Shown here: positions 10,986-63,976 of the stretch, one piece after another
Layout of the letters: each line of letters begins with the position of its first letter
Numbering within the stretch: the stretch's first letter is position 1
Assembly (NCBI GenBank): GCA_960531495.1
Contig: OY482852.1
Coordinates: forward strand, 34,913,117-34,977,116
DNA: 64,000 bases
Reading direction: 5' to 3'
Source: Zeus faber
Lineage: Eukaryota; Chordata; Actinopteri; Zeiformes; Zeidae
Made by a program: the position numbers and the translations under genes
The notes under the pieces: generated by a model
Database searches by the model: none
What the model was told of the DNA's origin: nothing
What the model saw: only the letters and a program-made list of their open reading frames with translations

Positions 10986-11500
10986 GATGATCTTATCAGA
11001 AGGCAGGAGAAGGCGAGTGTGTAAGAACACAGATTGTCGATGAAAAGAGGGGGCCAAGGACGACGACGGCCTGTGGAGGGCCCAGGATGGACAGTTTGTG
11101 GCTCCTACAGTATTACTAGGATTTCTCATTACTGAGGCATATGGTTTTGACCATTGTGCAAGAGGGGAAGTGGTAAGGAGAAAAAATGGGGGATGGTAGC
11201 TCAGGCGGTAGAGCTGGTGGTCTAGTGATCCAAAGGTTTTCTGGTTTGAGCCCAGGCTCCTCCTGCTAGCATGCTGTAGTGTCCTTGAGCAAGACACTTA
11301 ACCCCTAATTGCTCCTGATGGCTGCGTCCGTCAGCATTTGAACAATTGTAAGTCGCTTTGGATAAAAGCGTCTGCTAAATGTAAATGTAAAAAAAAGCAA
11401 GGATATTGGTCTCCCGTCTACAATGAATGGTAGATGTGCGTCTGGCTGAATGTGAAGTATGTGCCCAAAATAACATGTGAGGTGGGAAGCTTTTTCATGT
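10986..11500 (+). mobile_element. retrovirus-like pol continuation, integrase N-terminal region (fossil)
   Basis: Either side of a SINE, translated fragments resemble the zinc-binding start of retroviral integrase (a heptad with GFDHCARGE, then a CEVCAQNN-like stretch near 11,455). This is the expected continuation after the RNase H domain that ends near 9205; the L2 LINE lies between. Broken, with several breaks. Confidence 0.6.
11187..11396 (+). mobile_element. tRNA-derived SINE inside the retrovirus-like fossil
   Basis: Same family as 9535-9748: GGTAGCTCAGGCGGTAGAGC head, CTTGAGCAAGACACTTAACC body, GGATAAAAGCGTCTGCTAAA tail with ATGTAA repeats and a short A run. It divides the integrase-like relic. 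Confidence 0.9.
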
Positions 11501-44776: not shown

Positions 44777-44828
44777 TGCATTGGCTGGGAATCAAACCCA
44801 GGTCAACTGCTTGGAAGGCAGCTATGCT
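44777..44828 (-). pseudogene. tRNA-Gly(TCC), 3' 52 nt only, cut by a LINE
   Basis: Minus strand: starts AGCATAGCTGCCTTCCAAGC (anticodon TCC) and ends with the T arm and acceptor to TGCA. The first 20 nt, with the A box, are missing; in their place lies the A-rich 3' end of the LINE at 44,829-46,595. The B-box position reads GGTTTGATTCCC. Confidence 0.9.
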
Positions 44829-46595
44829 TTTTTTTTGTTGTTGTTTTTTATTATAAAAAGCAGACTTGTTACATTTCATTTATTTTCAGAAGACATTCAT
44901 AATACACCTTCCTTTACAGCAACACAGTCAGTCTTTATTCTTTTCTTCCCCCCCTCCTGGAGATACGCAATCTGGTGGCGTCTGGGCTCTTTCTACCTCC
45001 AAATTAAACTCTACTCCCCTCTCCTTAGAAATCACAACTGTTTTGCTCCCTCTAACCAAAGACTCCAAACTCCTCTTATCATACACCCATATTATCTTAA
45101 TATTCTTCTTAAATAATGCCTAAAAAAAAACCTGTCTATTTTTTTCCCTTCAAAATGAGCCATGTTCCTTCTCAACAAGATTGTGTATCTTGCCGCACTC
45201 AAGATGTAATTCAAGAAAACCACGTTGGTCTTCTTGTCCTTATCCACCACCCCAAAAATAAATACCTTCTTCCACTGAGCGCCACTTGTATATCCCCCCC
45301 CCCCCCATTGGCTGCTATCAACCGCTTTATCCTCTCCAAAACCCCCCCCAGTTCCGTACACTCTATGTATAGGTGCATTACCGTTTCTACTCCCCCTCCA
45401 CACACGTCACACTCCCTCCCTACCTCTCTATTTTTCTGATGTATGACTTCATTAGTATATATGCGGTTATGCCACAATTTGAAATCATTCTGCGCACACT
45501 CCAGACTATTGCATTTAATGTTTGTTTGTTGCCACATTTCCCTACTTGTGATGTCCTTGAATATTCCCCTCCATGCCACTTCAGCTGTTGGCCTCTTAAA
45601 TTCCCTGTCCCTGAACACTTCGTACAGCGCTTTCGCTTCCCACTCCTCCAGCTTCTTCACTCTCCCCCCGCACTCAATCCCTAGATCTGGCAACGGGCTC
45701 ATTCTCACCCCACTGTGGCTCCTATTAATCATACCCACCCACTCCACTGGCACCACACTTTTAATTTTCCCATATATCCTGCTTATCTCGCACCTCTTTG
45801 CCTCATCATTCCATTCCCTCACCGCATCCACTATCAGCCCCTCTCTCAAGAAGCCCGGTATCACCTCATACGTGTAGTCCTTCAGCTGTCTCAACCCCGC
45901 ATACCAAAAATCCTTATTATATATATAGTCCCGTGGTTGTGTTTGATTTTTCATTTAATAGGACCGGCTGGTTTAGGACCACGTCTATTGTATCACAATT
46001 ATACACTATTTGCTTTAGCAGCTCAGCCCATACCATGAACACTTCCTGGTAATAGGCCGGCACCGTTGTCATCATGCCCTTCTTCATCGACACTAACAGA
46101 CCATATTCCTGGCATCCCGCATGCTTATAAGAGTAGTTCCTTGAAGAAGGCCTTCCAGCCATTCTCCTCTTTATTATATATATATTTCTTAACTGTTTTG
46201 ATTCTGGCCGCCTTCCACCTACTTCTCAAGTCAATCAGGATGAGACGACCCTTTTCCTTCCCTCCTATCAGGGTCCGCCGCGCTATCCTTGCTGGCCCTC
46301 CATCCCATATAAATGTACCTATTCCCTCCTCTATCCCTTTAACTACCCACTCTGGCATGTCCATTACATTCAGGACATACCCTATTTTCGCCATAATCAA
46401 CATATTTACTATCACCACCTTTCCTGCAAACTTTATTTTCCTGGTTTTCCAGTGGTTCAGGCAGCATTTCATTTTATTCAGGACCTCAGTCCATGTCATG
46501 TTCCTCCCCTCTTTCCCGTCAGCCGCCATGTAGATCCCTAGTATTTTGATGTACTGATTATTAACCTTGAGCTCCTTCTCCTCCTGCACCTGATT
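44829..46595 (-). mobile_element. Tx1-group LINE A (Dewa/Mutsu-like), in tRNA-Gly, 5'-truncated
   Basis: Minus strand. The ORF2 part begins inside the RT thumb (VNNQYIKILGIYMAADGK, VVIVNMLIMAKIGYVLNV, FIWDGGPARIARRTLIGG) at about 46,589. It continues through QEYGLLVSMKKGMMTTVPAY, KDFWYAGLRQLKDYTYEVIP and a Cys/His domain (VGRECDVCGGGVETVMHLY), ending with ARYTILLRRNMAHFEGK near 45,140. It has a few frame changes, one at a G run near 45,300. The 3' end (TTTTTATAATAAAAAAC, A-rich) joins tRNA-Gly directly. Close to the 5S element: 58 of 69 residues match in one stretch counted by eye. Tx1-group LINEs of the Dewa family are known to target tRNA arrays. Confidence 0.85.
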
Positions 46596-48046
46596 GATGG
46601 ATAAAACAATAGATCAGATAGGATGTGATTCATCTGATCGATAAGTCCGGAGCAGGTCCAATAAGTAAAGTTAATGCATTTATTTCTGAGAGCCGTTTAG
46701 ATTGACCGGGAGCCGCACCGCACACCTTAAATGAAATATTTTCTATCCAACTTTATTTTATTTAAAATTATTGGGAAATATCGCAACAAATTGAATCCCA
46801 ACACTTAATCTATCGCAAAACTCTTCATATCGTGATGATATTGTGTCGTGAGGTCTACGATGATTCCCAGCCCTATTTGAGGGAATGATATATTTTTATA
46901 TATATATTGATAATTATTTCCACTTTTATATTCTGACACATTATAACCACTTTTCAGTGACTACCGAAGTGGGCCACAGATAAAGCCTTGGGCTACATTT
47001 TTGTTTTCACTTAATTGTTGTGTCCTCCCAAGGTCTGGAAGCCCCCACACCTAACACAAACAGATGCAAACACAAACTCATTGACGAAAAATGTAACATT
47101 CCAATGGAGCAATCAACCCCATTTCACTGAGAGGTGAAAATTCCGATCCTCCCAATTCAATGGGATCTCTGTAGTGGAGGAACCTATGTAGGTTATTCAG
47201 TTTACTGTCATATAGGACTTCTTAAATAATGACTCAAAGCTATTAATCATTATCAAAAAAGGTGGCGATTCATGAAATAGTTGCCAACTAATCGGTTGAC
47301 TAATTGTTGCAGCTCCAAAAAAGGATAATTAAATATATTTTTTAATACAAACCATGAACTTAAAACTGTGTTAACAATCTTTAGTGTTAAGTAGAATCCA
47401 TACACTATGAAGCCTAGTTATCTTTTGTACATATTGCTGGTGTATATTTTATGCTATTGACTTTTATTTATTAATTTTTAATATGTTATTGTTTTATTGT
47501 TGCTTTTTGAACATTTTAGATTTAATCTATTGAATGTGGGGTGGTTGAGGGGGGATGAGGCGTTTCTCAGAGAGCGCTGCAAATGCAGAAATCTTTTGCA
47601 ATATTTCACAATTATTTTGATCCCAATAACTCCTAAAAATTGAAATTTCAAAGACCTTTTATATTGAAATAAAAATGCCAACGACTAGAACCTATAAATC
47701 TACACACTTGGCCACCTTAAAACAAAGGAAAACTGTGACTTACCTCTCTCTAAGTAGTACATTGCTGTGTTTGTCTTATCTTACCATTCAGTATGACACT
47801 ATATTATTGTGGCCCACGGATATTAAAGATGTCCACAATCACATTGAATATCACTATTATTATTGTCTTTATTTTAGTCGATTTTTTTTAGGTAAATAAT
47901 TTGATATTCTTTATACTACTCCTTTGCATTTTTGATTTTTTTTTAATTCTGTTTTTTTTTTTCATCACAACTATGCCCTTATTTGACCTATTATGTAGAG
48001 TTGAGTCAGCTGGGAACTGGCTGCCAGCGGACAGGCCTCCGGCTGG
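46596..48046. other. no gene seen; hAT-like MITE debris
   Basis: At 46,770-46,880 and 47,280-47,315 there are motifs (TATCGTGATGATATTGTGTC, GATTCCCAGCCCT, GACTAATTGTTGCAGCT) common in fish non-autonomous hAT repeats. Borders cannot be fixed. No coding signal. Confidence 0.4.
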
Positions 48047-48225
48047 GACAGCCTCTTTAAGTGGCTCTCATTATACATCAGGGAACTGAATATAACATAA
48101 CTTTTACTTCTAATACATTAAGTACATTTCAGTGCATTATTAACCTGATGTTCATCTTGTTTATTTGCCTCCAAATATATAAAACACTGCAAAGCCAGTG
48201 TTTGATAAACTACCAGATCACAAAT
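48047..48225 (-). repeat. tRNA-Gly repeat unit, downstream flank, copy 2
   Basis: Near-identical to 44,602-44,776, same orientation. Confidence 0.8.
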
Positions 48226-48277
48226 TGCATTGGCTGGGAATCGAACCCAGGTCAACTGCTTGGAAGGCAGCTATGCT
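48226..48277 (-). pseudogene. tRNA-Gly(TCC), 3' 52 nt only, cut by a second LINE
   Basis: Same 52-nt remnant and same break point as 44,777-44,828. The B box here is the consensus GGTTCGATTCCC. A different LINE, B, ends in an A run against the same nucleotide. Confidence 0.92.
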
Positions 48278-49652
48278 TTTTTTTTTTTTTTTTTTTTTTA
48301 TATAAAGGAAAGCTTCATAAACACATACAGGTTTTACCGACCATCACTCAAAAATATACATCATTATTCTGGTTCACTAAGGCACATTAATACAGGTCAG
48401 GCCTCATTTCACCATCTCCTTCCCAGGTATGCAAAATGACAGAGTTCCATATTTCAGATATTTATAATCGGTCCCTCCCTCCTTACGTATTTAATTATCC
48501 TGCTCCCTCCCACCAGCATTGTAAGGTCCTTCGGCCTGTGTTTCCAAATCATCAAGAAGTTTTTGTTCAACAGTGCCTCAAAAAGGATTGACACCGGTAT
48601 TACTTTCCTCTCAAAATGTGCTAGGTTCCTCCTCTGCCATATTGCATACCTTGCATTGCTCAGTACGAAGATGAACAGGTTTTTGTTTTCTCCTTTATCC
48701 TTCCCCATGATCCCAAAGAGCAGGGTTCTTTCCACCTTTCTATCTCCAAAGGAACCCTCATCTCCTCCATTCCTCGTTATCACCTCCCTCAAAAGGTCCA
48801 GGAAACCTCTCAACCCCTCACACCGTGCATACATATGCAGCAGAGATTCCGCCTCTCTCCCGCATATGTCACACTCCCTTGCCACCTCTTTATTAAATTG
48901 GTGTATTACTATATTTGTATACACCCTATTTTGTCTTATTTTGAAGTCGTTATTTTCGCATTCTGTACTGTTGAATCTTATATTCAAAGTACCCCATATT
49001 TCTTCACTGCTTATCCCTTCAAAACTCTCCCTCCACTTCTCTTCCACCATCGGTTTTCTAAAGGCCTTTCCCCTAAACAACTTATAGAACCATTTAGATC
49101 TACAATTTACCAAATCCATCGTCTGTTCCCCGTTTTTGATCTTTAGTTTCGGTAGATCTCCGCATCCTGTTCTTCTAAAGTCCCTGTTTATTTCTTCCGC
49201 CCACCCTATCGGAATAGCTCTCCTTACTTGTTCATACATCCTTCTTATATCTCTCTCTCTTATATCATCATCCTACTCTTTTACCGTGTCAATAATCAGC
49301 CCCTTTTTAAGGAACCCCGGAATCACCTCATATATATAATCTTTTAGTTGTCTCAGCCCGGCAAACCAGAAATTTCTGTCATATAGGACTCTGTCCTGTT
49401 CTTTTATCCTTTCATTTAGAAGGAGTGGCTGATTTATCACCATATCTATGTTTTCACATTTATAACTAATATTTTTCAATAGTTCAGCCCATACCTCTAG
49501 TACCTCTTGATAGAAAACAGGTATATCTGCCATCATTCCTTTCCTCAGCGAGACTAGAATACTATACTCCATGCAGCCTCCACACTTATGCAAATATTCT
49601 CTAAAGAAAGTTTTCCAGGCCTTCTTCTCCTTTTCATATAGAAATCTTATTA

Positions 49653-51355
49653 CCGTATTTTCACGACTATAAGGCGCATATAAACGTCTTTTTTTTTTCC
49701 TCAAAATGTGCGGCGCGCCCTATAGTGCGGTGCGCCCTATGTGTGTTGTTACTGCGGACGTTGTTGAGACCACCATGAGAACGTTAAAGGGGGAAGTGTG
49801 GGCGTGGATTGTGTATAAAAGAACAGGTATGTGCTTTATGCAGAACATTGTTGTCTTAACAACCCTTAAAATGGCAAAGAGACACGCCTATGAAGCACAG
49901 TTTAAACTGAAGGCTATCAGCTACGCAGAGGAACATGGAAATCGAGCAGCCGCGAGAGAATTCAAGATTAATGAATCGATGGTTCGCAAGTGGAGGAAGA
50001 TGGAAAACGAACTCCGACAGGTGAAGAAGACGCAGCTGAGTTTCCGCAGACATAAGGCGAGGTGGCCCGAGTTGGAGGAAAGACTCGAGCGGTGGATCAT
50101 CGAGCAAAGAACGAGTGGGGCGAGCGTTTCGACGGTCACTGTTCGACTAAAAGCAGTAACGCTAGCGGAAGAAATGAAAATTGAACATTTTCAAGGAGGT
50201 CCGTCGTGGTGCTTTCGTTTTATGAAACGGTGCCATTTTTCCATCCGGACCAGGACTACAGTAGCGCAGCAACGTCCGGCGGATTATAATGAAAGATGGC
50301 GAGCTTCCACTCCTACTGCAGCAAACACATCGCCGACAAACGCATCCAGCCAAGCCACATCACCAACATGGACGAGGTGCCGCTCACTTTCGACATCCCG
50401 GTGAATCACACGGTGGAGAAGAAGGGGACCAGCACGGTAGCGATACGCACAACGGGGTATGAAAAGGTGTCGTTTACTGTTGTGCTTGGCTGCCACGCAA
50501 ATGGACAGAAACTGCCGCCTATGGTGATTTTTAAGAGAAAGACTTTGCCTAAAGAGACTTTTCCAGCTGGAGTCGTTATTAAGGCAAATGAAAAGGGCTG
50601 GATGGATGAGGAGATGATGAAAGAGTGGCTGAGGGAGGTGTATGTAACGAGACCAGGTGGTTTTTTCCACGCATCACCATCGCTGTTAATCTGTGACTCC
50701 ATGCGTGCCCATCTCACAGCCGATGTGAAAAACAAGGTGAAACAAATGAACGCTGTGCTTGCTGTTATTCCGGGAGGTCTGACAAAGGAACTTCAACCGC
50801 TCGACATCGGTGTGAACCGGCCGTTCAAAGTAAGGCTGCGAGCGGCGTGGGAGCGATGGACGACCGACGGAGACCACAGTTTCACGAAAAGTGGAAGGCA
50901 GCGCCGGGCAAATTACGCCACAGTTTGCGGATGGATTGTAGATGCTTGGGCTAACGTGTCTGCTGGCACTGTTGTTCGAGCTTTCGCAAAAGCCGGCATC
51001 ATTTCCGGGGAGCCGCACGGCGCGGAAAGTGACTCTGACAGCGAAGAAGGGGAAACTGGCATGTCTGATTTAGCGCAGCTGTTTAATTCAGTAACAGAGG
51101 ATGATGACTTCGATGGGTTTGATTAATACTTTGTAATAAATACATGAATAAAGCACAAACATACTCAGTTTTGCTCCCGCTCTATTTTTAAATACGCAGT
51201 AGAGGTATTTAAACGTAGTAGAGGATATGTACCGGTATATAAAACCCGCGCCCTATAATCCGGTGCGCCTTATGTGTGTGTTAAATACAGCTGAGGCACA
51301 CATAACTGAGACTGCGCCTTTTAGTACGGTGCGCCTTATGGTCGTGAAAATACGG
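49653..51355 (+). mobile_element. pogo-superfamily DNA transposon, nearly whole, inside LINE B
   Basis: 1703 bp. Terminal inverted repeats of about 26 bp with one mismatch start CCGTATTTTCACGAC and continue ATAAGGCGCA; the target duplication is TA (49651-49652, 51356-51357). It interrupts LINE B codons between KAARSK and FLYEKEKKAW. Related terminal motifs (GGCGC.CCTATA) repeat inside each end. Later than LINE B. Confidence 0.95.
49871..51126 (+). pseudogene. pogo/Tigger-like transposase, one frameshift
   Basis: ATG 49871 gives MAKRHAYEAQFKLKAISYAE, an N-terminal helix-turn-helix (AAAREFKINESMVRKWRK). Then a CENP-B-type second helix-turn-helix (ELEERLERWIIEQR) and the DDE catalytic domain: NMDEVPLTFD, LLICDSMRAHL, LQPLDIGVNRPFK, giving the three acidic residues D-D-D. 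An acidic tail (SDSDSEEGE) ends at TAA 51,126. A single base is missing near 50,291 by comparison of the two frames; everything else is open. Pogo transposases cut and paste at TA sites. Confidence 0.92.
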
Positions 51356-52026
51356 TACTTTACTCCTCGCCGCTTTCCATTTGCTATCTATATCTACTAA
51401 TCCCAGCCCTCCCTCCTTCCTTCTCCCTATCAATGTTTTCCTCGCTATGATGGCTGGTCCACCTCCCCATATAAAGCCCATAATTTCTCTATTCATTGCC
51501 ACTCTTACCCACTCAGGCATCTCCAGCACATTCAAAACATAGCAGATCTTCGACACAATCATCGCATTCTTCACCACCACTTTCCCTCCAAGTTTTAACC
51601 TCCTTTTTTTCCAGAAGCTCAAACCCCTTTTCATTTTATTCAACACCTCCGCCCATGTTTGGTCTCTGGTTTCTCTCTCATTCTCTCCGATATATATGCC
51701 CAGGATTTTAAAGCTGCCTCTGACTTTCTCCAGCGGGGCTTCGCTCCCTTTCTGTTCCATTCCCCCTATATACATCATTTTGGAATCATCTATATTTATT
51801 TTTGCTCCCGATGCTTCACCATATCTCTCCATACACCCTATGATTCTTCCTACACTCTCCTCATCTTTTACTGTTATAGTTATGTCATCAGCATATTGCT
51901 GTAGCACACATGTAGCGTTGCATTTCACCCGGCTCTGCGAGCAATTGTACAGTAGCTTTATCCATCCTACTATCCCGTTTCCATACCCGAATACCTCCAT
52001 TGTCCGAAATAAAAAATTGTGGTCCA

Positions 52027-52494
52027 CCCTATCAAACGTCTGTCCGTCTCTCCGGGGCTCCGTCTTGCCACACGCGGGTTCCAGTTCTCCACGGCGCTAC
52101 ACTTCTCCACGAGGTTCAAACAATCCACGGCGTTCAACTTCCCCGTTTCGTCATCGCAACGCTGCTCTGTCCGTCCGTCTCCCCGCCCCCTCCCCGTGCT
52201 CCGTCTCCGTCTCACCGCCCCTGGGCTCCACTTCTCTGTCTCTGTCTCTGTCTCTGTCTCTGTCCCTCCGCCGCTCTCGTCCTCCACAACACCCGGCGCA
52301 CCCTCCGACCCTCCGATCAGCTCCGTGCTCCGTCTCCCCGCCCCGCCCCGCCCCCGGGCTCCACTTCTCTGTCTCTGTCCCTCCACCGCTCCGGTCCTCC
52401 CCGACACCCGGCGCACCCTCCGACCCCGTGCACCCACACTTAAGCGCACCCCACCCAGCCACAAAGCGAGAAGCGGCTAGAAGTGGCGAGAAGC
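52027..52494 (-). repeat. Tx1-group 5' UTR segment with tandem repeats
   Basis: 52,030-52,230 is nearly the same as 59,905-60,113, the 5' UTR of the 5S-associated LINE. Beyond that it has two tandem units (each starting CTGGGCTCCACTTCTCTGTC or similar, about 52,218 and 52,345) with CTGTCT and CCGTCT short repeats, typical of promoter-bearing LINE 5' UTRs. It joins the 18S relic at 52,494. It is much better conserved than the LINE B coding part it is fused to. Confidence 0.7.
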
Positions 52495-52528
<34 letters not shown>

Positions 52529-52942
52529 ACAAGCTTATGACCCGTGCTTACTGGGAATTTCTCGTTCATGGGAAACAGTTGCAATCCCCAATCCCCATCA
52601 CGAGTGGGGTTCAGCGGGTTACCCGCGCCTGTCGGCGAAGGGTAGGCACCACCATTATCATTATCTAGAGTCACCAAAACGGCCGGGGCGCACCCACGGA
52701 AGCGGGGCACCCCGCTTGGGTTTTAGATCTGATAAATGCACGCATCCCCGCAAGGGTCAGCGCTCGTTGGCATGTATTAGCTCTAGAATTGCCACAGTTA
52801 TCCAAGTAGCGGATGAGCGAGCAAAGGAACCATAACTGATTTAATGAGCCATTCGCAGTTTCACTGTTCAGCCGTGTGGACTTACACTTGCATGGCTTAA
52901 TCTTTGAGACAAGCATATGCTACTGGCAGGATCAACCAGGAT
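52495..52942 (-). rRNA. 18S rRNA relic with large internal deletion
   Basis: Minus strand. The 5' end starts CCTGGTTGATCCTGCCAGTA at 52,942 and runs about 280 nt to TGACTCTAGATAA near 52,665. After about ten extra bases it resumes at GTGCCTACCCTTCGCCGACA near 52,652 in the 3' domain and ends at TTTGTACACACCGCC (52,495). About 1.3 kb of the usual ~1.85 kb gene is missing, including most of the decoding structure, so it cannot give a working small subunit. Confidence 0.93.
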
Positions 52943-53525
52943 AGCATTCGGTTTTTCGCGCACGGGCGGCGCGGAGAGGCACGCGCCGCAGATAGCACTG
53001 GGGCGGGGGGGGGGGCGCGCGCGCGTGCCTCGGTTCGGGTGACAGCACCCCCGGACGGGGGCGTTTGCTCCGCGTGTTTCAACCACTAGGGCGGGTGGCG
53101 AGAGATTCGAGAGAAACCATCGTGTAGGCGAGTGGGCCGAGGCCGTGGGGAGACAGTCGGTATGGTTGCCTTGGAATCGGCGTCTCCCGGGCACACGGCC
53201 CGCCTGAGTAGGACAACTGGGACAGACGGGGCGGCTCACCTTCGCTCGTGTTGTTTTTGCATCGGCGCCGTGGGGGCTTTTTGAGACGCCCGTCGTCTCG
53301 GGCCCCGAGCGGCTGCCGTGCGGGTTGCGGACCCCTGTGGGTCGTGAGTAGGAGAACCGGCCGGGGGAACGGCGCGGGGCACTCACATGGGGGGTCACTA
53401 TTGCATATCGCTGTGGAGGCGCCAGTCCGGGCTGGGACACACACAGTTGTGGTGGCGGTGCTTAAGCTGCTGCTGATTTCACTCACTCACACACTCCTGT
53501 CTCTAGTCCCTCAGAGAGCTTGCCT
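52943..53525 (-). other. 45S 5' external transcribed spacer (ETS)
   Basis: GC-rich sequence directly upstream of the 18S 5' end on the minus strand, with the composition and position of a 5' ETS. The transcription start is not identifiable by eye; the TATATA at 53,528-53,534 in the adjoining spacer repeat is a possible promoter-near landmark. Confidence 0.7.
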
Positions 53526-53915
53526 CCCCATATATACGGTGAGGAAGTGTTTTAGTAACATGAGTGTTTACAGGGGGTGCCCTAGGCCAGGTGAAACCAA
53601 CACGCGTGCCTGATTGTCACCCTGAAGATGGGGACGGCTGCAACTGGTGATCTGCGTCGGACTTGGAAAAAATCCTCGCCGCTCCGATCCATTTGCATTG
53701 CTTCCGTGGGCCTGGGACCCTAGCTCCCTATAAACGGTGAGGAGGTGTTTTAGTAACGTTAGTGTTTGCAGGGGGTGCCCTAGGCCAGGCGAACCCAAGG
53801 GCCTTGCCTGATTGTCCCCCTGAAGATGGGGACGGCTTCAACTGGTGACCGGCGTCGGACTTGTAAAAAAAATAAAAATAATAAATCCTCGCCGATTCAA
53901 TCCATTGCTATGTGT
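53526..53915 (-). repeat. rDNA intergenic spacer repeat, two ~198-bp units
   Basis: Units at about 53,526 and 53,725. Shared blocks: ACGGTGAGGA.GTGTTTTAGT, GGGGGTGCCCTAGGCCAGG, CTGAAGATGGGGACGGCT and CGTCGGACTTG. Each starts with a TATA-like stretch (CCATATATACGG, CCCTATAAACGG). Such units in other vertebrates may hold spacer promoters or enhancers for RNA polymerase I; that role is inference. Confidence 0.8.
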
Positions 53916-53939
53916 TCGAGCGGGGACGCGGACACGGCC

Positions 53940-54345
53940 GCCACTTGGTCCCGTGGCTCGAGCCCGTCGGAAAGTGCTCCGACAGGGGACGCTGACACGG
54001 AACACGGGACACGGACACGGAACACGGAACACGGACACGGCCACGACACGGACACGGCCGCCTTCCGGGCCCCGGATCGGGGCTTTGCCAACGGCGCATT
54101 ATGCTCAAAGCAGTGCGTGTCACTCGGCGGCCACGAGAGCTTCCGCCCGCCCTTGGTCCCGTGGTTCTAGCTGGTCGGGAAGTGCTCCGACTGGGGAAGG
54201 GCCGCTTTCCGGGCCCCGATCCGGGGCTTTTCCAACGGCGCATAATACCCAAAGCAGTGCGTGTGACTCGGGGGCCACGAGAGCTTCCGCCCGCCCTTGG
54301 TCCCGTGGTTCTAGCCAGCCAGGAAGTCCTCCGTCCGGGGAGGGG
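53940..54345 (-). repeat. rDNA intergenic spacer repeat, ~144-bp units and a short ACACGG array
   Basis: Two full units at 54,058 and 54,202 plus partial ones at 53,940 and 54,295. Shared: TTCCGGGCCCCG, GGCTTT.CCAACGGCGCAT, AAAGCAGTGCGTGT and CCCTTGGTCCCGTGG. Between them ACGGACACGG/AACACGG repeats fill 53,994-54,057. Confidence 0.8.
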
Positions 54346-54430
54346 AATATATAAATGGGGAGGGGAAAAAGAAGAAGAAAAAAAAAAAATTAAATAATAA
54401 TAATAATAAATACAATAAAATGAAATAAAA
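54346..54430. other. A-rich tract with TAA/ATAAT runs
   Basis: Low-complexity A and AATAAT tract downstream of the 5S relic. On the minus strand the 5S gene is followed by a T run that could serve as an RNA polymerase III terminator. Confidence 0.6.
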
Positions 54431-54524
54431 AGGCGCACAGCACCTGGTATTCCCAGGCGGTCTCCCATCCAAGTACTAACAAGGCCCGACCCTGCTTAGC
54501 TTCCGAGATCGGACGAGATCGGGC
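54431..54524 (-). rRNA. 5S rRNA, 3' 94 nt, cut by a LINE
   Basis: Minus strand: GCCCGATCTCGTCCGATCTC, then GGAAGCTAAGCAGGGTCGGG, CTTGGATGGGAGACCGCCTG and the 3' end with GGTGCTGTGCGCC. The internal promoter boxes are present, but the first 26 nt are missing; the LINE 3' end lies at that point. Not functional as 5S rRNA. Confidence 0.95.
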
Positions 54525-54621
54525 TTATCTTTTTTTTTATTTTTTATTATAAAAAGCACACTTTTACATTACATCACTTTTCATTGTACATACATACTCC
54601 AATTCCTTCACAACCTCAACA

Positions 54622-57600
54622 TCAGTTTTCACTCCCCCCTCCATCCCCTGAAGACACGCAATCTGGCCTCATCCGGGCTCCCCCCTCATCCAAATTAAAC
54701 TTCACTCCCCTCTCTCTAGAGGTTACCACTGCCGCACTCCCTCTTACCAAAGACTCCAACCTCCCCTTGTCATGTTCCCATATCATCCTAATGTTCTTTT
54801 TAAATAATGCCTCAAAAAAAAACCATGCCGCTATCTTTTTCCCTTCAAACCGAGCCATATTCCGCCTCAGCCAGATTGCATATCTTGCCGCACTCAACAT
54901 GTATTTCAAGAACCCCACATTTACCCTCTTGTCCCGCTCCCCCACTCCAAAAATAAGGACCTTTTTCCACTGAGTGCCACCTGCATATTTCCCCCCCCCC
55001 CGTTTGCTGCCACTAGTCGCTTTATTCTCCTCATAAACCCCTCCAGCTCCGTGCACTCTACATATAGGTGCATCACTGTCTCCACCTCCTTTCCACACAC
55101 ATCGCACTCCCTCCCTACCGCTCTGTTTATCTGATGCACAACTTCGTTCGTATATACACGGTTGTGCCAGAGCTTAAAGTCATTCTGTGCACACTCCAGG
55201 CTATTTCCCTTTATATTTGTTTGCTGCCATATCTCCTCGCTCTTGATATCCTTAAAGATCCCCCTCCATGCAATCTCAGGCGTCGGCCTCTTGAACTCCT
55301 TATCCCTAAATAACCCATACGGCGCCTTCGCGCCCCACTCCGCCAGCCTTCTAACCCCCCCTTCCCACTCCACCCTTAGCCCTGGCAATGGGCTCTCCTT
55401 TGCACCCCTGTGGCTGCCGTTAATCATCCCCACCCACTCCAGTGGCACCACACTTTTAATCCTCCCATATACCCTACTTAACTCACTCCCCCTTACCTCC
55501 TCATTCCATTCCCTCACTGCATCCACTATCAAGCCCTCCCTCAGGAAGCCCGGTATCACCTCGTAGGTATAGTCTTTCAGCTGCCTTAATCCAGCATACC
55601 AGAAATCCTTATTATATATAGTCCCATGATTATATTTAATTCTCTCATTTAGCAGTGCCGGCTGATTTAGCACCATATCTATTGTGTCGCAGTTGTACAC
55701 TATTCGTCCAAGCAGCTCAGCCCATACCAGGAACACCTCCTGGTAGTAGGCCGGCATTGTTACCACCATACTCTTCCTCATTGAGACTAGCAAGCCCTAT
55801 TCCTGGCACCCCGTCTGCTTATGCAGCAGCTCCCTGAAGAAGGCCTTCCAGCCCTTCTCCTCTTTGTCATATATATATTTCTTCACCGTTTTAATCCTGG
55901 CCGCCTTCCACCTGCTCCTCAGGTCGATCAAGTTGAGCCCACCCTTCTTCTTTTCCCCTATCAGGGTCTGCCTCGCTATCCTGGCTGGCCCTCCCCCCCA
56001 AATGAATTTCGCAACCGCCTCTTCTACCCCTTTCACTACCCACTCCAGCATGTCCACCACACTCAGGACGTATCCTATTTTTGCCATGATTAAACTATTT
56101 ACTATCACCACCTTCCCTGCCAGTTTTACTCTCCTGGTTTTCCAGTGGTTCAAACAGCACCTCATTTTATTCTGTACTTCCGCCCATGTCATTTTCCTCC
56201 CCACCTCCGCATCCGCTGCCATGTAGATCCCCAATATTTTGATATACCGATTGTTGACCTCCAGCTCTCTCTCCTCCTCCCCACTCCCCGCATCCCCTAT
56301 GTACATGATCTGGGACTTTTCGATATTTAATTTAGCCCCCGACGCCCTCCCATACTTCCTCACACACTCTAGGACCACTTCCAGGCTCGCCCTATCCCTC
56401 ACCGTTACTGTGATGTCATCCGCATACTGGTTGAGGCTGCATGTCCTCCCTCCCGGCATCTCTATCCCCCTGATTTTGCTCTCTTGCCCTGTGAGTGTGG
56501 CCAGTGGTTCCACCGATATGGTGTACAGGATCGAGGACAGGGGGCATACCTGCCTCACTGACCTACCCAGTTTGATGACCTCCGTCAACACCCCATTACA
56601 CTTCACCCGGCTCTTTGACTCGCTAAGTATAGTTCTTACCCACCCTATTATCCCCGGCCCATATCCAAAGGTGGCCATCGTTTTATACAAGAAATCATGA
56701 TTAACCCTGTCAAAGGCCTTGTTGAGGTCTAGAGCCGCCAGTATCCCCCCTGTCCGCGTCATGCACTCCGTTAGGTCCCTTATCGTGTGCAGCGTGTCCG
56801 CGATGTCCCTCTTCGGCACACTGTATGCTTGCGCTGTCCCGATAATATCACCCAACGTCCTCTTTAGTCTATTCGCCAATATTTTGGCCAAGACCTTGCC
56901 ATCTGTGTTCTGCAGGGTTATTGGCCTATAATTCTTCAACTCCTCCCTGCTCCCGTTCTTTTTATATATAAGCCTAATTATCCCCGTCGCCATGGAATCC
57001 GGCACCCTGCTCGTCCTTTTTATCCCCTCGAAGACCCTCGCCAGCAGTAGTACTGCGTCGCTCTCAAATTTTTGGTAGAACTCCGTCGTGAGCCCATCCC
57101 CCCCCGGACTTTTCCCTTTTGGCAGCGCCCTTATGGCCATTTTTATCTCCTCGTTACTTATGCTCCCCTCACACTCCTCCCTCCCTTCCTTCGTAACCCT
57201 CGCCCTAACGGTCCTCAGTATCTCCTCCCCCTCTTCTGAGTCTACCCCTTCCTCCCTATATAACTCCTCGTCATACTCCTGCACTACCTCCAAAATCTCA
57301 ACGAACCCCTTAACCATGTCCCCCTTCTTGTTCTTCACCTGCCCTATGTACGCTCTTTCCTGTGCCCTGTTCTCCAGGCGCAGGAAAAAGGCCGTACATT
57401 TCTCCCCCTTCATCGCATACCTAACCCGGCTCCTTATCAGAGCTCCTCTGCACTTTTCCTCCTCGTATTTCCCCATCTCATGCTTCAGCCTCACCAGCTC
57501 TCCCACACTGTAGTCTGGGTTTCGCTCTATCAACCCCACCTCGTCCCTCATTCTTCTTTGCAAGTCTTCCACCTTCTCTTGCCTCTCCCAACCCCTCATT

Positions 57601-58489
57601 TTAGCGCGCCTGATGCTAATCTTCTTAACCTTGGCTTTAAGCGCCTCCCACCACCCCACCTCCTCTCCCTGCCCCAGTCTCCTGGTGCTCCATTCACGCA
57701 TAACCGCGCTGATCTCCCGGACGTAGCCCTCGTCTGCCAGCAGGTCCGCATTCAGGCACCACGTACCCCCCCCCCCCTTCTTCCCCCCCCTTGGCCCAGC
57801 CTGACGCACACCTTTGCGTGATCACTAAATCCCACAAAAGCGTACCCCACGCTGTGCACCCTCCCCACACACTCAGGCCCTGCCAGGCATAGGTCTATCC
57901 TAGACTGCTTGAGTTCTGCCTGCACCATTTGCCTCCTCGAGTATCCCCTCCTCCCCCCATTCCCCTCTCTCCATACATCTACTAGCTCCTTCCGCTCCAT
58001 TAGGTCCAGCAAGGCCTTCCTTGAGGCATCCGGTCTAAATTTGCTGGTTCATGGCGCGTCCAGCCTGTCGCTCCAAACATTAAAATCCCCTACAATGATA
58101 ATGTTCGGCACCATTAGCGACTCTAGGCCCTCAAAGAAGGCCTTCCTGTCCTTCTCCACATTCGGAGCATAAATATTGAGCATCCTGTAATCAAACCCCT
58201 GAAGCCTAAAGTCTATGGCCACCATCCTCCCCTGCCCATCCACCGCACTCTGTCGTACACCCTCCAGCACCCCCCTCTTCACCAAAATCGCCACCCCACA
58301 TGATCTATTTGTCCCGTTGCTCACATATATCTCCCCATCCCATACTTCCCCCACCAGTGGGACCATTTCCCGTGTCCACCCCGTCTCTTGTATGCATATT
58401 ATTTCCGCATCACACACCATAATCACCCTCCTGAGCTTCTCCCTTCTCCTCAAACCATCAGCATTTATGGACATAATGTTACAAAACAT
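54622..58489 (-). pseudogene. Tx1-group ORF2: endonuclease, reverse transcriptase, Cys/His domain
   Basis: Start ATG 58,489. Endonuclease: NIMSINADGLRRREKL, IICIQETGW, LNIYAPNV, IIVGDFNVWSDRLDAP. An in-frame TGA sits near 58,053. A frame change lies at a C run near 57,780. RT 57,809-55,797: KGKSPGGDGLTTEFYQKF, NYRPITLQNTDGKVLAKILA, LDLNKAFDRVNHDFLY, QYADDITVTV, FIWGGGPARIARQTLIGE. An in-frame TAG at 55,797 (CQE/GLLVSM), then KDFWYAGLRQLKDYTYEVIP and the Cys/His domain VGRECDVCGKEVETVMHLYV. A second frame change at the C run near 54,995, then ARYAIWLRRNMARFEGKK to 54,622. This enzyme nicks the target and primes cDNA from element RNA. Confidence 0.88.
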
Positions 58490-58532
58490 GCATTTTTGCT
58501 GTTACTTTTGTATGTATTTTCAGTCCCGATGC

Positions 58533-59798
58533 CTAAACCTTCCTCCTTCCCACCTTTCTCCCCTCTCTCTCTCTGTCTCTCTTTCCTCTCACCTTCCTCT
58601 TGGCCGCCAACGCCCGTCCCGGAGATTGGTCCATTGTCCCCTCCTCGGAGCCCGATGGCCCCTCCTGCTGCATGTCCACTGCCTGAGGCGTCCCCTCCGT
58701 CACCCACTCGCAGTCGTCCGCCTCCGTCGGTCGTTGCGCCTCCTCACTCCGCGCCTCTCCCACTCCGTCCCTGTCTGTTCCCTCCGTCCTCGCACACCCT
58801 CCAGGCGTCTCCCTCTCCACTCGCTTCCTCCCCGACCTCATCTGCCCCGGCTGGATATCCTCCTCCTCCGCTCCCCACTCTTCCAGCAACCTCCTCTGTT
58901 GCTCCTGCTGCATCGCGTCCCCGCCATCTTCCTTCTCTGTACAGTGTTCCTCGTACGTGCTCTCCTCTTGTCCCGCCTCTTCCTCCGAGTCCACGAGACC
59001 GCTGTTTTCCCGGCTCTCCGGCGCCGTCCCCTCGCACTCGCAGATGTCCGCTCTCCTCTGGCATACTTTGCACCGCGCCTCCTCCGCCACGCACTCTCTC
59101 CTGTAGTGCCCTTGCTCCCCGCATCCGAAGCACCGGAATTCGGGGCACTCCCTCAGGATGTGTCCTGGCTTTATGCACTGCCGGCACACTTTTACCTGCC
59201 GGTCGTGTATTACCCGGCAATGCTCAACCCCAGCCAGCGTCTCAAATTTTGCTGAATAAGGCAGCGATGTTATTTCCCCTCCAAACCTTACTTTCAGGAA
59301 TCTGGTGCCCTCGGCTATATTGGTCCCCGGCCACATTCTCCGCTTTATCGGGGAGGCTGGTGTCACGCCCCACTCCCTGAGTTTCATCAGGATGGCCTAT
59401 TCCTCAAGGTAGACCGGGAGGAACATGAAGGAAACCACCACCTCACTCCTGTCCACCTCCACTGCCATGACTCTGTTTCCTTTTATTCTTATCCCGTCCA
59501 TCAGCTTCTCTTTACCGGCCAAATCCTCCATAGTAACCTCATAGCTGGTCGGTGTGAGGTACCGACACCCGGCCACTGCACCGCATTCCTCCCCGATCCT
59601 CTTGAGCATTTCCATCATTGTTAATCTGTCCGGCCCCTCAAAGCTCACTCTTGCTGTTAATCGCCCCTCATACCTCCTCTGCTCTCCATTTACATTGTTT
59701 CGTCCCTGTATATTCTCTTCGCCTCCCTCCGGCATTTCTCCTCTCTCCTCCGCGCGTGGTCTCGACGGACCCGCTGCTTCCGGCTTCCGCTCCGTCAT
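58533..59798 (-). pseudogene. Tx1-group ORF1 with three CCHC-like knuckles, one stop
   Basis: ATG at 59,798 (MTERKPEAAGPSRPRAEERG). Then a possible RNA-recognition-like part (VSFEGPDRLTMMEMLKRIGE, YEVTMEDLAGKEKLMDGIRI). A single in-frame TAG at 59,397 interrupts YLEE/AILMKLREWG. Zinc knuckles follow: CRQCIKPGHILREC, CFGCGEQGHYRREC, and CKVCQRRADICEC, which lacks the usual His position. The C-terminus is acidic then basic. ORF1 proteins of this group bind element RNA and chaperone nucleic acid. It ends 43 bp before ORF2. Confidence 0.85.
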
Positions 59799-60113
59799 CA
59801 CGAGAGGCGTGTCCAGAGCGGTATGGCCGTGCGCCGTCAGCACATGTGGGGGTGCAACTTTTTTAGGAAACCTCAACCTTGCTGTCGCAGCGCGGCTGCC
59901 TCCGTCCGTCTCTCCGGGGCTCCGTCTGTCCGTCTCTCCGTGGCTCCGTCTCGCCACGCGCGGGTCCCAGTTCTCCTCGGCGCTACACCTCTCCACGAGG
60001 TTCAAACAATCCACGGCGTTCAACGTCCCCGTTTCCTCATCGCAACGCGGCTCCGTCCGTCCGTCTCCCCGCCCCCTCCCCGTGCTCCGTCTCCGTCTCC
60101 GTCTCACCGCACC

Positions 60114-60526: not shown

Positions 60527-63500
60527 TTACCTCACTGCCTCGCGCAGAAAGTCCCTAAGTACATCCAAGGAGTACAGCAGGGCCCTCCGGCTAATCAGTT
60601 TGGCAAATCTCGCCCTCCTCGCTACAGTTAGTCCCAATTCGATGAGCACTGCGGTACTGCATGAAGGCCATTTCCCTCGCGCTCCTACCGGGAACCCCAT
60701 GACCTTCACTGTTCCTCCTCCCATAAGTCCCGAGAGCTGTTCTTTGATGGGTGTATAATGCACGACTTTCTCCTCAGCGGCCGCCATCAAAGTACCGCTT
60801 TCGTACTCATACCTGATGGTAACATCAAGCGCTAGGATTTTGCCGGCTTTGACACAAACCAGATCGGGAATCCGAATCACCCCTTCGGGTGACACGACTC
60901 GAACCTCTCTGGTCGTCTCCCAACCGACCCTCTCAGCCTCGATGGCCAGAAGGTCGCATATCTTGTGGTGCCTCCTTATTCTACTTCCCTGGACGGCCGG
61001 GCACTGCCCCAAGATATGCGAGCAGGTTTCCAACCTGGCGTGGCATCTCCTAGACGTCGCGTGTTGTTTGGGTCTCCCTCTTGTAAGGAATTCCCTGGTG
61101 GGGTACACACCAGCCCTGAGCGCCAGCGCCGCAACATAGTGCCTCTGTCTGAAACCCACTTTCATGGGCTCATAGAGCCACGAGTTGCTCAGCCTGTCGC
61201 CCGCAAACTGGTCCGCCCCAACCCCTTGGACCTGCAGCTTCTGCCACGCCACGTTTTCCGCCTGCCTCCAGTCAGGTATTACTGGAGAGCCTCCTGATAC
61301 GTTGCTTTCCAATGTCCACTCTGGGACTTCTTCCCGGCCAACGCCTACCTGTCGCCACATCCTACACCACACCTCTCGGGTCACAGTACTCATCGTCATG
61401 TGACTTGTCCATTCATCCTCCGAGATAGCCATATTGCCGGCTCTTTGGATTTGTATTTTTGGGATGGCCCGCTCAAGCCTGGGCACTCCCAGACCTCCGT
61501 CCCGATTGCGCGAGTACAGTAGTCCATTACACGTAGAAGGGGGTAAATGGAGCCATGTCTTCACCGCATTGCGGACCATCCCGTCGATAATGGCAAGAGT
61601 TGTTGCCGGCACTCCCCCCAGATCTGCTTGGTACAGTAGCCTCGGTAGAGCAAACGAGTTCAAAACCTTCACTCGTTGTGAAGGCTTTAGAGGAGCCTTT
61701 TTGATCCTTCCTATCCATTCCTGGATTTTCGGGATCAGATCTGGAGTCTTAATGCCATGACATGGTCCCACTTCCACTCCCAGGTAACGCACTGTTTCAC
61801 CCGGCCCAATCATATGACTGGGCTCCTCCCCAATCATCCAGGTTTTGCAGTCGTTCACCACTCCCTTCTCCAAGTAGAAACCATGACATTTCTTGGGCTG
61901 AATTTTCAGCCCAGTCCATTGGCAAAAGGACCCCAAGATGTTCAGGTTCCTCCTCATTCCCCTTTCCGAGCCACTGACCAACACGAGATCATCCGCGAAT
62001 GCCAGCGTGGTGATCTTGCGATCATCCCAACTCAAGCCATCTCCCTTCGTCTCCAAGCGCTGGATTAAGGGGTCCATTGCAAGATTGAAAAGCAAGGGTG
62101 ACATTGGGTCACCCTGCTTTACTCCAATCTGCATGTCGATAGTGGGTGTCTTGATACCCGCACTACCGACCCTTGTCACGCAGTCCACGTAAGAGTTTTT
62201 GATTAACTCTATTACATGTCGGTCCAGTTGTCGTTGCTCCAGCGCACATTGGATGTGTTCGTGAGCTATGGAGTCAAACGCCTTGGCAAAGTCGACAAAT
62301 ATGACTGCTAGTTTGTCCCCTGTCAACCTCGAGCGCTTAATGATCCCATTCAGGATCACCAGATTTTCCGCGCAACCACTCGAGGCGGCAAGGAACCCCC
62401 GTTGCCTAGGATTCAACGGACAAGCTCTGGACAGCCTCATCGTCAGAATCCTAGAGAGCAGCCTCAGTACCATGGAACCAATAGTAACGGGTCTCCACCC
62501 GTCCGTGCTCTTATTTTTTATTGCATTCCTGGACTTTGGTAGCAGCTTTGTTCGACACGCCTTGAATTCCTTCGGTATGACTCCATGGACCGTCCATGCT
62601 GTGAACAGCCTCGCAAGTTGTTCACCCCTTGGGTCCCAGTCAAGCAATGCTTGCTTCCTGATTCCATCGGGACCAGGGGCCGAACCGTTTTTCATCTTTG
62701 CCAGGTTTTCTCTTACCTCAGCAGACAAGATGGGCGTATAAAACTCCTCGTTTCGAGCTTTGGAGGAGGACTTAAACTTGCCGAGCCCGTGGAATAGTCC
62801 CTTTCCCCTCCATCGTTCACGGAACGCTCCGTGAACCTCTTCAATTGGTAGGGTACATTCCACTTCATCCTCACCATCTAGGATGAGGGTTGCCAGTCTA
62901 GCTTGATCCCTTTGGTACAGCTGTTGATGTACCCGGTAATCTCGCTTTTTATGGGAGAGCCGCCTCTCCCACCCTTTCATGGCTCGACGTTGTTCTCTGC
63001 CTCCTCCACCTCTGCGAGGAGCCTTCTGCTCACCCAATCTGGAAATAAGATCTGACGCTGAAGACTGGATCAGATCAGGATTCTGGTCCACGTCCCTGAC
63101 AAACTCTGCCATGGCCCTGACCTCACTCTCATTTTCCATCCCGTCCCTGCCCACAAGTGCAGCTCGGAGCTGATTGTGCACAGAGTCCGGCACAGGCAAT
63201 GGAGCGATCGCTGTTTCCAGAGGTTCTTGTTCCCTCTGTTCACAATCAAGGCCATGACGTGCCCTTTCGGCTAGCAGTAGTCTCCGTTTGTTCCTCACCT
63301 GCTCGTCCGTTTTACCAGATCCGAGCTCCTCTGCAATGAGTATGTTGGCCATCGGTCCTCCTTCATACTTTCTTTCGAGCCTTATCAAGGTCTCGACTTC
63401 CTCAACTTTCCACAACTTGGTCCCCCGAATACCACTCGTTCCACCACCCCTTGCCGCACACCTTTCCCTGTTCAGTTCCACTGGGTGGTTGTGTCGCTTG

Positions 63501-63976
63501 TGCTGCGTCAAGCCAACTTTCGACTCAAAGCCTTTCTTGCAGAGTTTGCACGCGAACTCTCCTTCCTCTCTCACGCCCTCCACGATTCCCCGACATTTGG
63601 GGATGTGGCACGCTATTGAGTGACCGCTGGCATTGGTCCGCCCACATTCACGACACGCGTAGAGAACCTGTGTACCTGCATGCCGGTTCGCGCAATGCTT
63701 ACCAAACATCATGATCCCACTGGTCTCTACCCCACACACTGGACACTCCAGTTTAGGACTCGGCAACGTAATGGTGATACAAGCTGGATCAGGCGTTACT
63801 ATATGCTCACCTTGATCCTGGTTTTCGGAGGTAAGCTGCGGTTGATGTTTTTCCTTGGGTCGTACCGCATAGGCTTCCAAAATCTCATCGAGAGGGCTCT
63901 TCTCTGAGACTACAGGGCGTGTCGGAGGCAAGTATTCGGCATCCCCATACCCAATGTATGAGTTCACTACCGTCAT
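60527..63976 (-). CDS. R2 protein: DNA-binding, reverse transcriptase, endonuclease
   Basis: 1149 codons without interruption. ATG at 63,976; an in-frame TAG lies two codons upstream, which fixes the start to this ATG or later. Three N-terminal zinc fingers: CPVCGVETSGIMMFGKHCANRH (residues ~78-99), CRECGRTNASGHSIACHIPKC (~108-128), and CKLCKKGFESKVGLTQHKRHNH (~143-164). A Myb-like region follows (~186-235). RT motifs: VDFAKAFDSI (~561-570), GVKQGDPMSPLLF (~618-630), and FADD (~660-663). The C-terminal zinc knuckle is CHARLETCSHILGQC, and the PD-(D/E)XK-like endonuclease has IPDLV...LALDVTIRYE (~1030-1057). Three fingers place it with the three-finger (A-type) R2 group. All catalytic signatures appear present, so the copy may be active. 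Confidence 0.95.
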   Translation of the reverse strand: MTVVNSYIGYGDAEYLPPTRPVVSEKSPLDEILEAYAVRPKEKHQPQLTSENQDQGEHIVTPDPACITITLPSPKLECPVCGVETSGIMMFGKHCANRHAGTQVLYACRECGRTNASGHSIACHIPKCRGIVEGVREEGEFACKLCKKGFESKVGLTQHKRHNHPVELNRERCAARGGGTSGIRGTKLWKVEEVETLIRLERKYEGGPMANILIAEELGSGKTDEQVRNKRRLLLAERARHGLDCEQREQEPLETAIAPLPVPDSVHNQLRAALVGRDGMENESEVRAMAEFVRDVDQNPDLIQSSASDLISRLGEQKAPRRGGGGREQRRAMKGWERRLSHKKRDYRVHQQLYQRDQARLATLILDGEDEVECTLPIEEVHGAFRERWRGKGLFHGLGKFKSSSKARNEEFYTPILSAEVRENLAKMKNGSAPGPDGIRKQALLDWDPRGEQLARLFTAWTVHGVIPKEFKACRTKLLPKSRNAIKNKSTDGWRPVTIGSMVLRLLSRILTMRLSRACPLNPRQRGFLAASSGCAENLVILNGIIKRSRLTGDKLAVIFVDFAKAFDSIAHEHIQCALEQRQLDRHVIELIKNSYVDCVTRVGSAGIKTPTIDMQIGVKQGDPMSPLLFNLAMDPLIQRLETKGDGLSWDDRKITTLAFADDLVLVSGSERGMRRNLNILGSFCQWTGLKIQPKKCHGFYLEKGVVNDCKTWMIGEEPSHMIGPGETVRYLGVEVGPCHGIKTPDLIPKIQEWIGRIKKAPLKPSQRVKVLNSFALPRLLYQADLGGVPATTLAIIDGMVRNAVKTWLHLPPSTCNGLLYSRNRDGGLGVPRLERAIPKIQIQRAGNMAISEDEWTSHMTMSTVTREVWCRMWRQVGVGREEVPEWTLESNVSGGSPVIPDWRQAENVAWQKLQVQGVGADQFAGDRLSNSWLYEPMKVGFRQRHYVAALALRAGVYPTREFLTRGRPKQHATSRRCHARLETCSHILGQCPAVQGSRIRRHHKICDLLAIEAERVGWETTREVRVVSPEGVIRIPDLVCVKAGKILALDVTIRYEYESGTLMAAAEEKVVHYTPIKEQLSGLMGGGTVKVMGFPVGARGKWPSCSTAVLIELGLTVARRARFAKLISRRALLYSLDVLRDFLREAVR

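Follow-up and report, generated by a model that had tools for sequence, protein, structure and literature searches.

A 64,000-nucleotide stretch of the Zeus faber genome (hereafter the window; contig C8, positions 34913117-34977116) was analysed. The contig is 35 Mb long, one of 153 in an 803-Mb assembly, and the window comes to within ~32 kb of its end. Three Tx1-type long interspersed nuclear elements (LINEs), all on the minus strand, proved to be real: one is inserted in a 5S rRNA gene (5S LINE), and two, LINE A and LINE B, are joined to tRNA-Gly(TCC). LINE A falls inside a clade of copies of the 5S LINE family, and on balance is probably a single stray insertion of this Mutsu-like 5S family into tRNA-Gly, with no established tRNA-Gly-specific lineage behind it.

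Junctions with 5S rRNA and tRNA-Gly genes

The tail of 5S LINE abuts GATAAGCCCGATCTCG of 5S, and 5S sequence is present on both sides of the element, a 3' part (GATAAGCCCGATC...GTGCGCC) and a 5' part (GGCGCACGGCC...), with ends that are mutually complementary. An uninterrupted type-2 5S gene (L069, C122:1750-2150) reads CCGCTCTGGATAAGCCCGATC, which places the entry site of the element between CTCTG and GATAAGCC. The motif GATAA was rejected as a portion of the tail, as it belongs to the type-2 5S sequence. Where the empty gene has GATAAGCC, the 5S sequence on the 5' side of two diverged elements (at 59806-59813 of the window and at L044) is GACACGCC; a copy on contig C93, 72-74% identical to 5S LINE, also has the 5S 5' part at its 5' end. 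GACACGCC may be an 8-bp duplication with two changes, or a piece of 5S carried by the element RNA.

Other 5S genes among the matches listed (of 132 pattern matches) are of a different type, reading CACGCTGAATACGCCC and close variants, and lie in an array on C3 (15.67-15.92 Mb), with two on C6. This type hosts none of the seven readable 5S junctions described below, all of which are in type-2 genes, rare among the matches listed. The occurrence of two 5S gene types in one genome recalls the maternal and somatic types in the title of Locati 2017.

Open reading frame 1 (ORF1) of 5S LINE encodes a CCHC knuckle (PF00098, E 3.1e-06) and has one in-frame stop. ORF2 encodes a reverse transcriptase (RT; PF00078, E 5.2e-31) and zf-RVT (PF13966, E 5.8e-07), with two stops and two frame changes. 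The apurinic-like endonuclease (APE) domain resembles L1 endonuclease structures (best 2v0r 'LTX', E 1.9e-14). The range given in an earlier note on this DNA extends to 60113, which is beyond the element (end at 59805) and in flanking spacer.

The A-rich tail of LINE A abuts GCATAGCTGCCTTCCAAGCAG, the 3' part of tRNA-Gly(TCC), and the tail of LINE B abuts the same tRNA base, the junction falling between nt 21 and 22. The junctions of LINE A and of 5S LINE, as read, confirm the earlier note's placement of the former in tRNA-Gly and of the latter in 5S. LINE B had been called much more distant in spite of the shared site, and it matches LINE A at 246 of 506 residues (49%) and 5S LINE at 307 of 620 (50%). 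The statement that both targets are cut near the start of the internal promoter holds only loosely: in tRNA-Gly the junction follows nt 21, presumably a short way beyond the A box; in 5S it follows nt 22, which we take to be upstream of the 5S internal control region. LINE A is truncated inside RT and lacks the endonuclease, and what remains of LINE B likewise begins in RT. No tRNA-Gly 5' part was found beside either element, which means that each has suffered truncation or deletion on its 5' side; Rfam made no tRNA call at LINE A or LINE B, where only the tRNA 3' part remains. The coordinates of the elements and of their targets are collected in the table.

Table. Positions of the three LINEs and the interrupted genes in the window
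Feature	Coordinates	Strand	Remarks
5S LINE (Mutsu-like Tx1)	54530..59805	-	5' end, ORF1, ORF2, 3' untranslated region (UTR) ending CTTTTTATAATAAAAAATAAAAAAAAA
3' part of interrupted type-2 5S rRNA gene (GATAAGCCCGATC...GTGCGCC)	54432..54529	-	empty type-2 gene read at C122
5' part of type-2 5S gene (GGCGCACGGCCATACCGCTCTGGACACGCC)	59806..59835	-	first 7 nt complementary to 3' end of gene
LINE A	44828..46586 (upper end approximate)	-	5' truncation inside RT; frameshifted; 3' UTR and A-rich tail as is typical of the family
tRNA-Gly(TCC) 3' part (from nt 22), downstream of LINE A	44777..44827	-	with its 3' flank, part of a multicopy unit
LINE B	48277..52036 (upper end approximate)	-	distant Tx1; begins in RT; DNA insert ~49652-51357
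Second tRNA-Gly(TCC) 3' part, downstream of LINE B	48226..48276	-	cut at the same base as that of LINE A

LINE A within the 5S LINE family

LINE A and 5S LINE align over 1767 bp of DNA with 78% identity and share 408 of 542 comparable ORF2 residues (75%). The close match noticed earlier around KDFWYAGLRQLKDYTYEV was recovered, at 59 of 69 residues by protein alignment in place of 58, and CTTTTTATAATAAAAAA is present at the 3' UTR end of both elements, as had been reported. They had been described as close sisters; they are relatives, but not sisters, since dS between them is ~1.1 (dN 0.13) and LINE A is closer to locus L024, which lies beside 5S. The DNA identity of LINE A is 89% to L024 and L030, which are mutually near identical, 76-83% to the rest of the family and 57% to LINE B.

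A search with the 3' end of LINE A gave 14 genome matches, ~7 groups once duplicates were set aside, and the count of 5S insertions rests only on these matches. The 3' junction was readable in nine: seven lie in 5S genes (four groups) and two, LINE A and its twin on C19, in tRNA-Gly. The family thus has a fixed insertion site in 5S genes in seven of nine readable matches. The 5S junctions are those of L025, L026 and L027 (5S LINE of the window and its duplication twins), L024, L028, L029 and L031, with L028 and L029 near identical; L024 joins 5S directly, having lost the end of the 3' UTR and the tail. The junction is deleted in L023 and runs into N in L030, L032, L033 and L034. The twins reflect segmental duplication of the LINE region, which recurs close to the ends of contigs C8 and C19 as well as on C105 (99-100% identity): the matches on C19 and C105 are twins of LINE A, and two further matches are twins of 5S LINE. 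Rfam called 5S in 5 of 18 loci (L024, L025, L027, L028 and L029, of which L028 and L029 were below the gathering score).

Relatives of LINE B are few: two duplication twins at tRNA-Gly, a fragment of 31 bases on C13 and two copies on C1 (55% protein identity). These C1 copies (L040 and L041, C1:3.19-3.20 Mb), ~6.8 kb from each other, represent a third Tx1 lineage, the one closest to LINE B. Its 3' flank, CAGCTCAAGGGAACCACG, is neither 5S nor tRNA-Gly, and Rfam gave no target for it. Ten large further regions contained only distant LINEs (~25-28% protein identity).

In trees rooted with LINE B alone, the position of LINE A received SH-aLRT/ultrafast bootstrap (UFboot) support of 100/76 and 96.7/75; with LINE B and L041 as outgroups, the values were 99.8/95 and 100/95. 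With the latter outgroups, a single clade of the other family copies excluding LINE A was rejected by the approximately unbiased (AU) test (p=0.0023), from which duplication twins, L028 and L033 had been dropped beforehand. A protein tree of 43 sequences, the homologues in which carry no family names, paired LINE A with 5S LINE and joined LINE B to them, with local support of 1.0. The deeper splits of the family show purifying selection. Private changes at the three codon positions number 37/40/97 on the 5S LINE branch and 10/10/8 in L024; in LINE A they are flat (8/13/10).

Since its nearest relative lies beside 5S and the AU test rejects its exclusion, LINE A falls inside a clade of 5S-family copies, and the mixed targets within one clade that the earlier note had proposed to look for are confirmed. 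Separate old clades with one target each, which the note had named as evidence to the contrary, were not found.

Origin of the LINE A insertion

A pattern of six A residues followed by the tRNA-Gly 3' part (A6+tRNA-Gly; at most two mismatches) was found at five places in the assembly, all of them the LINE A and LINE B loci and their twins; a reversed-pattern control gave no match. The pattern would miss junctions that lack an A tail or lie inside assembly gaps. The tRNA-Gly unit itself is multicopy, with 40 scored matches from 146 candidates, five being those of LINE A and LINE B. Twenty of the 35 other matches were read, and in all 20 the unit was uninterrupted with its 5' part in place. ARAGORN called tRNA-Gly(tcc) in 12 of these; the eight uncalled units (seven on C21, one on C75) look degraded. 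A purely local duplication as the source of the tRNA-Gly piece was rejected, as the unit is multicopy with uninterrupted copies elsewhere. A large cluster of the units, many with a damaged tRNA part, lies at C21:21.68-22.90 Mb.

By the A6+tRNA-Gly pattern, therefore, one LINE A locus and one LINE B locus, each with twins, were found in tRNA-Gly, and not several independent copies of one lineage. LINE A is not a copy in a 5S gene, as its 3' junction is tRNA-Gly, and its nesting in the tree places its RT in descent from the 5S family. The 'target switch' suggested earlier survives as a mixed clade. It does not survive as a lineage with a new specificity, which the term implies, because a single tRNA-Gly locus and its C19 twin stand against four 5S groups. 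A family-level switch is also not confirmed given that LINE A is one truncated copy without endonuclease, that its changes are flat across codon positions and that the pattern occurs only at LINE A and LINE B. A recent family-wide switch was rejected, there being no A6+tRNA-Gly pattern beyond these two elements.

We therefore prefer a stray insertion, which could have proceeded as follows. The usual target of the family in this genome would be the rare type-2 5S rRNA genes, entered at the site given above. On one occasion, LINE A RNA would have been integrated by target-primed reverse transcription (TPRT) between nt 21 and 22 of tRNA-Gly(TCC), another multicopy RNA polymerase III (Pol III) gene, presumably by the usual route of APE nick and TPRT. 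The nick would probably have been made not by B-type enzymes but by an endonuclease of 5S type that accepted a site of partial similarity (GATAAGC vs GCATAGC). The tRNA 5' part would have been lost, and LINE A, having landed once, would have decayed as dead DNA.

Several observations weigh against this reading; they concern the insertion base, the tree and the readable targets. LINE A is at the exact base used by the distant LINE B, which chance mis-targeting predicts poorly. The likeness of GATAAGC to GCATAGC, on the 3' sides of the two targets, is weak. In this 7-base comparison it takes first place among 81 registers when gaps are cheap, second place when they cost more and sixth place (of 81) when none are allowed, and it is lost (45/73) once the left flank is added, so that it is only a hint. 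The shared base could instead mean that LINE A RNA was integrated in trans by the proteins of a B-type, tRNA-Gly-specific element, with the target reflecting the machinery of LINE B. The two elements are the sole loci with the A6+tRNA-Gly pattern, and their 3' ends look alike (GCTTTTTATAATAAAAAA vs GCTTTCCTTTATATAAAAAA). LINEs, however, usually act in cis, and B-type elements are rare (the window copy, its two twins and the C1 pair, the flank of which is different), so we regard integration in trans as unlikely. Alternatively, the Tx1 elements of the present clade may recognise Pol III genes partly by position, with a latent second target that surfaces repeatedly. This is suggested by junctions 21-22 nt inside the RNA (after nt 21 in tRNA-Gly, after nt 22 in 5S) and by the use of the same tRNA base in two diverged lineages; we hold it to be a long shot.

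With LINE B as the sole outgroup, UFboot support for the position of LINE A is only 75-76. Quartet counts are conflicted, with 51 sites joining LINE A to L024, 51 joining it to 5S LINE and 11 joining it to L031. The conflicting sites do not cluster along the element, and a window scan gave no support for a mosaic origin of LINE A. Targets are unreadable in 4 of the 14 family matches; the AU test treated L030, L032 and L034 as 5S copies though their targets are unread, and the 5S junction of L024, without the last 3' portion and tail, is not clean. When LINE B is counted, moreover, a history in which 5S is ancestral in the family and tRNA-Gly was gained in LINE A takes two steps, as does one that starts from tRNA-Gly, retained by LINE B and LINE A, and has 5S targeting appear separately on the 5S LINE branch and on the L024/L031 branch. 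The second history accords with the AU result that the family copies minus LINE A are not one clade. It needs the exact same 5S base to have been reached twice; moreover, neither target adjoins the 3' end of the other outgroup (L040/L041), and the branch of LINE A is short and looks neutral. An ancestral tRNA-Gly target is accordingly improbable in our view.

The missing tRNA 5' part means that a rearrangement at the tRNA junction of LINE A, which the earlier note had also considered, keeps some weight. A 5S-inserted copy might have exchanged, within the A tail, with a B-type copy in a neighbouring tRNA-Gly unit. LINE A and LINE B are separated by 3.4 kb and both lack the tRNA 5' part; 258 bp of their 3' flanks align with 94% identity, and the tRNA-Gly flank of LINE A is closest to that of LINE B (96.9%). 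Set against this, LINE A keeps the family-typical tail down to the last ~9 A residues, leaving very little homology for an exchange; the flank of LINE B resembles other units (L052 and L053, 97.2%) no less than it does that of LINE A; and self-BLAST gave no LINE B or 5S LINE match directly upstream of LINE A. A recombinant junction is thus very unlikely, and the stray insertion remains the reading that we prefer.

Neighbouring features and related elements

LINE B and 5S LINE are each preceded by a copy of a 177-bp spacer repeat (at 52037-52213 and 59923-60099), the two copies having 94% identity. Directly upstream of 5S LINE, an uninterrupted ORF of 1149 amino acids (60527-63976, minus strand) belongs to an R2-type LINE (R2 structures, E 7.5e-265). 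The sequence after this ORF is unlike 28S by eye, and a fragment of 18S rRNA (52438-52940, minus strand) is all that was called as large rRNA in the window. This covers the whole 18S model in ~500 bases and is therefore internally deleted. The DNA insert in LINE B (49652-51357) has inverted CCGTATTTTCACGAC-like ends and TA flanks, and resembles a transposon of pogo/Tigger type. At 9536-9734 and 11188-11388, two tRNA-like heads are followed by UnaL2 3' tails, an arrangement resembling that of short interspersed nuclear elements.

Mutsu is placed in the Tx1 clade and is reportedly the subject of Kojima and Fujiwara 2004 and Locati et al. 2017. It is described as a 5S-specific LINE of zebrafish (PMC3706591, PMC11202950). 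Like 5S LINE, it is a two-ORF LINE inside 5S rRNA genes and of similar length (~5.5 kb vs 5.3 kb). The likeness is one of description, and copy A here differs in lying in tRNA-Gly. Tx1 is listed as one of the three groups with most target-specific LINEs (PMC4640811). Dewa, a zebrafish non-LTR element, is likewise tied to tRNA loci (PMC3706591); by that description it is set apart by lying in the spacer of another tRNA, tRNA-Leu, and not inside the gene. TRE5 of Dictyostelium, an L1-clade LINE, goes to both tRNA and 5S genes (PMC5911963), but its insertions lie some way upstream of the gene, and not at one base inside it, and its ORF1 binds TFIIIB.

In ray-finned fish, tRNA and 5S genes are also the targets of Dada families, in some cases at the A box; more than one tRNA is hit by certain families, and the target sequences of related families are similar (PMC8869645 and PMC3706591). 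Dada are DDE DNA transposons, not LINEs, yet the sequence-guided drift of their targets between tRNA and 5S genes (PMC8869645) may be a precedent, by analogy, for LINE A. In the literature searched, as far as the retrieved parts of the sources go, we recognised no description of a Tx1 element inside tRNA-Gly.

In our view, target change in LINEs is mostly inferred from old, fully separated site-specific families. A candidate for an intermediate in such a change is offered by a tRNA-Gly copy that belongs to a 5S-inserting clade and shares its insertion base with a distant relative; to put the question to the test, a single endonuclease and two short DNA targets would be enough.

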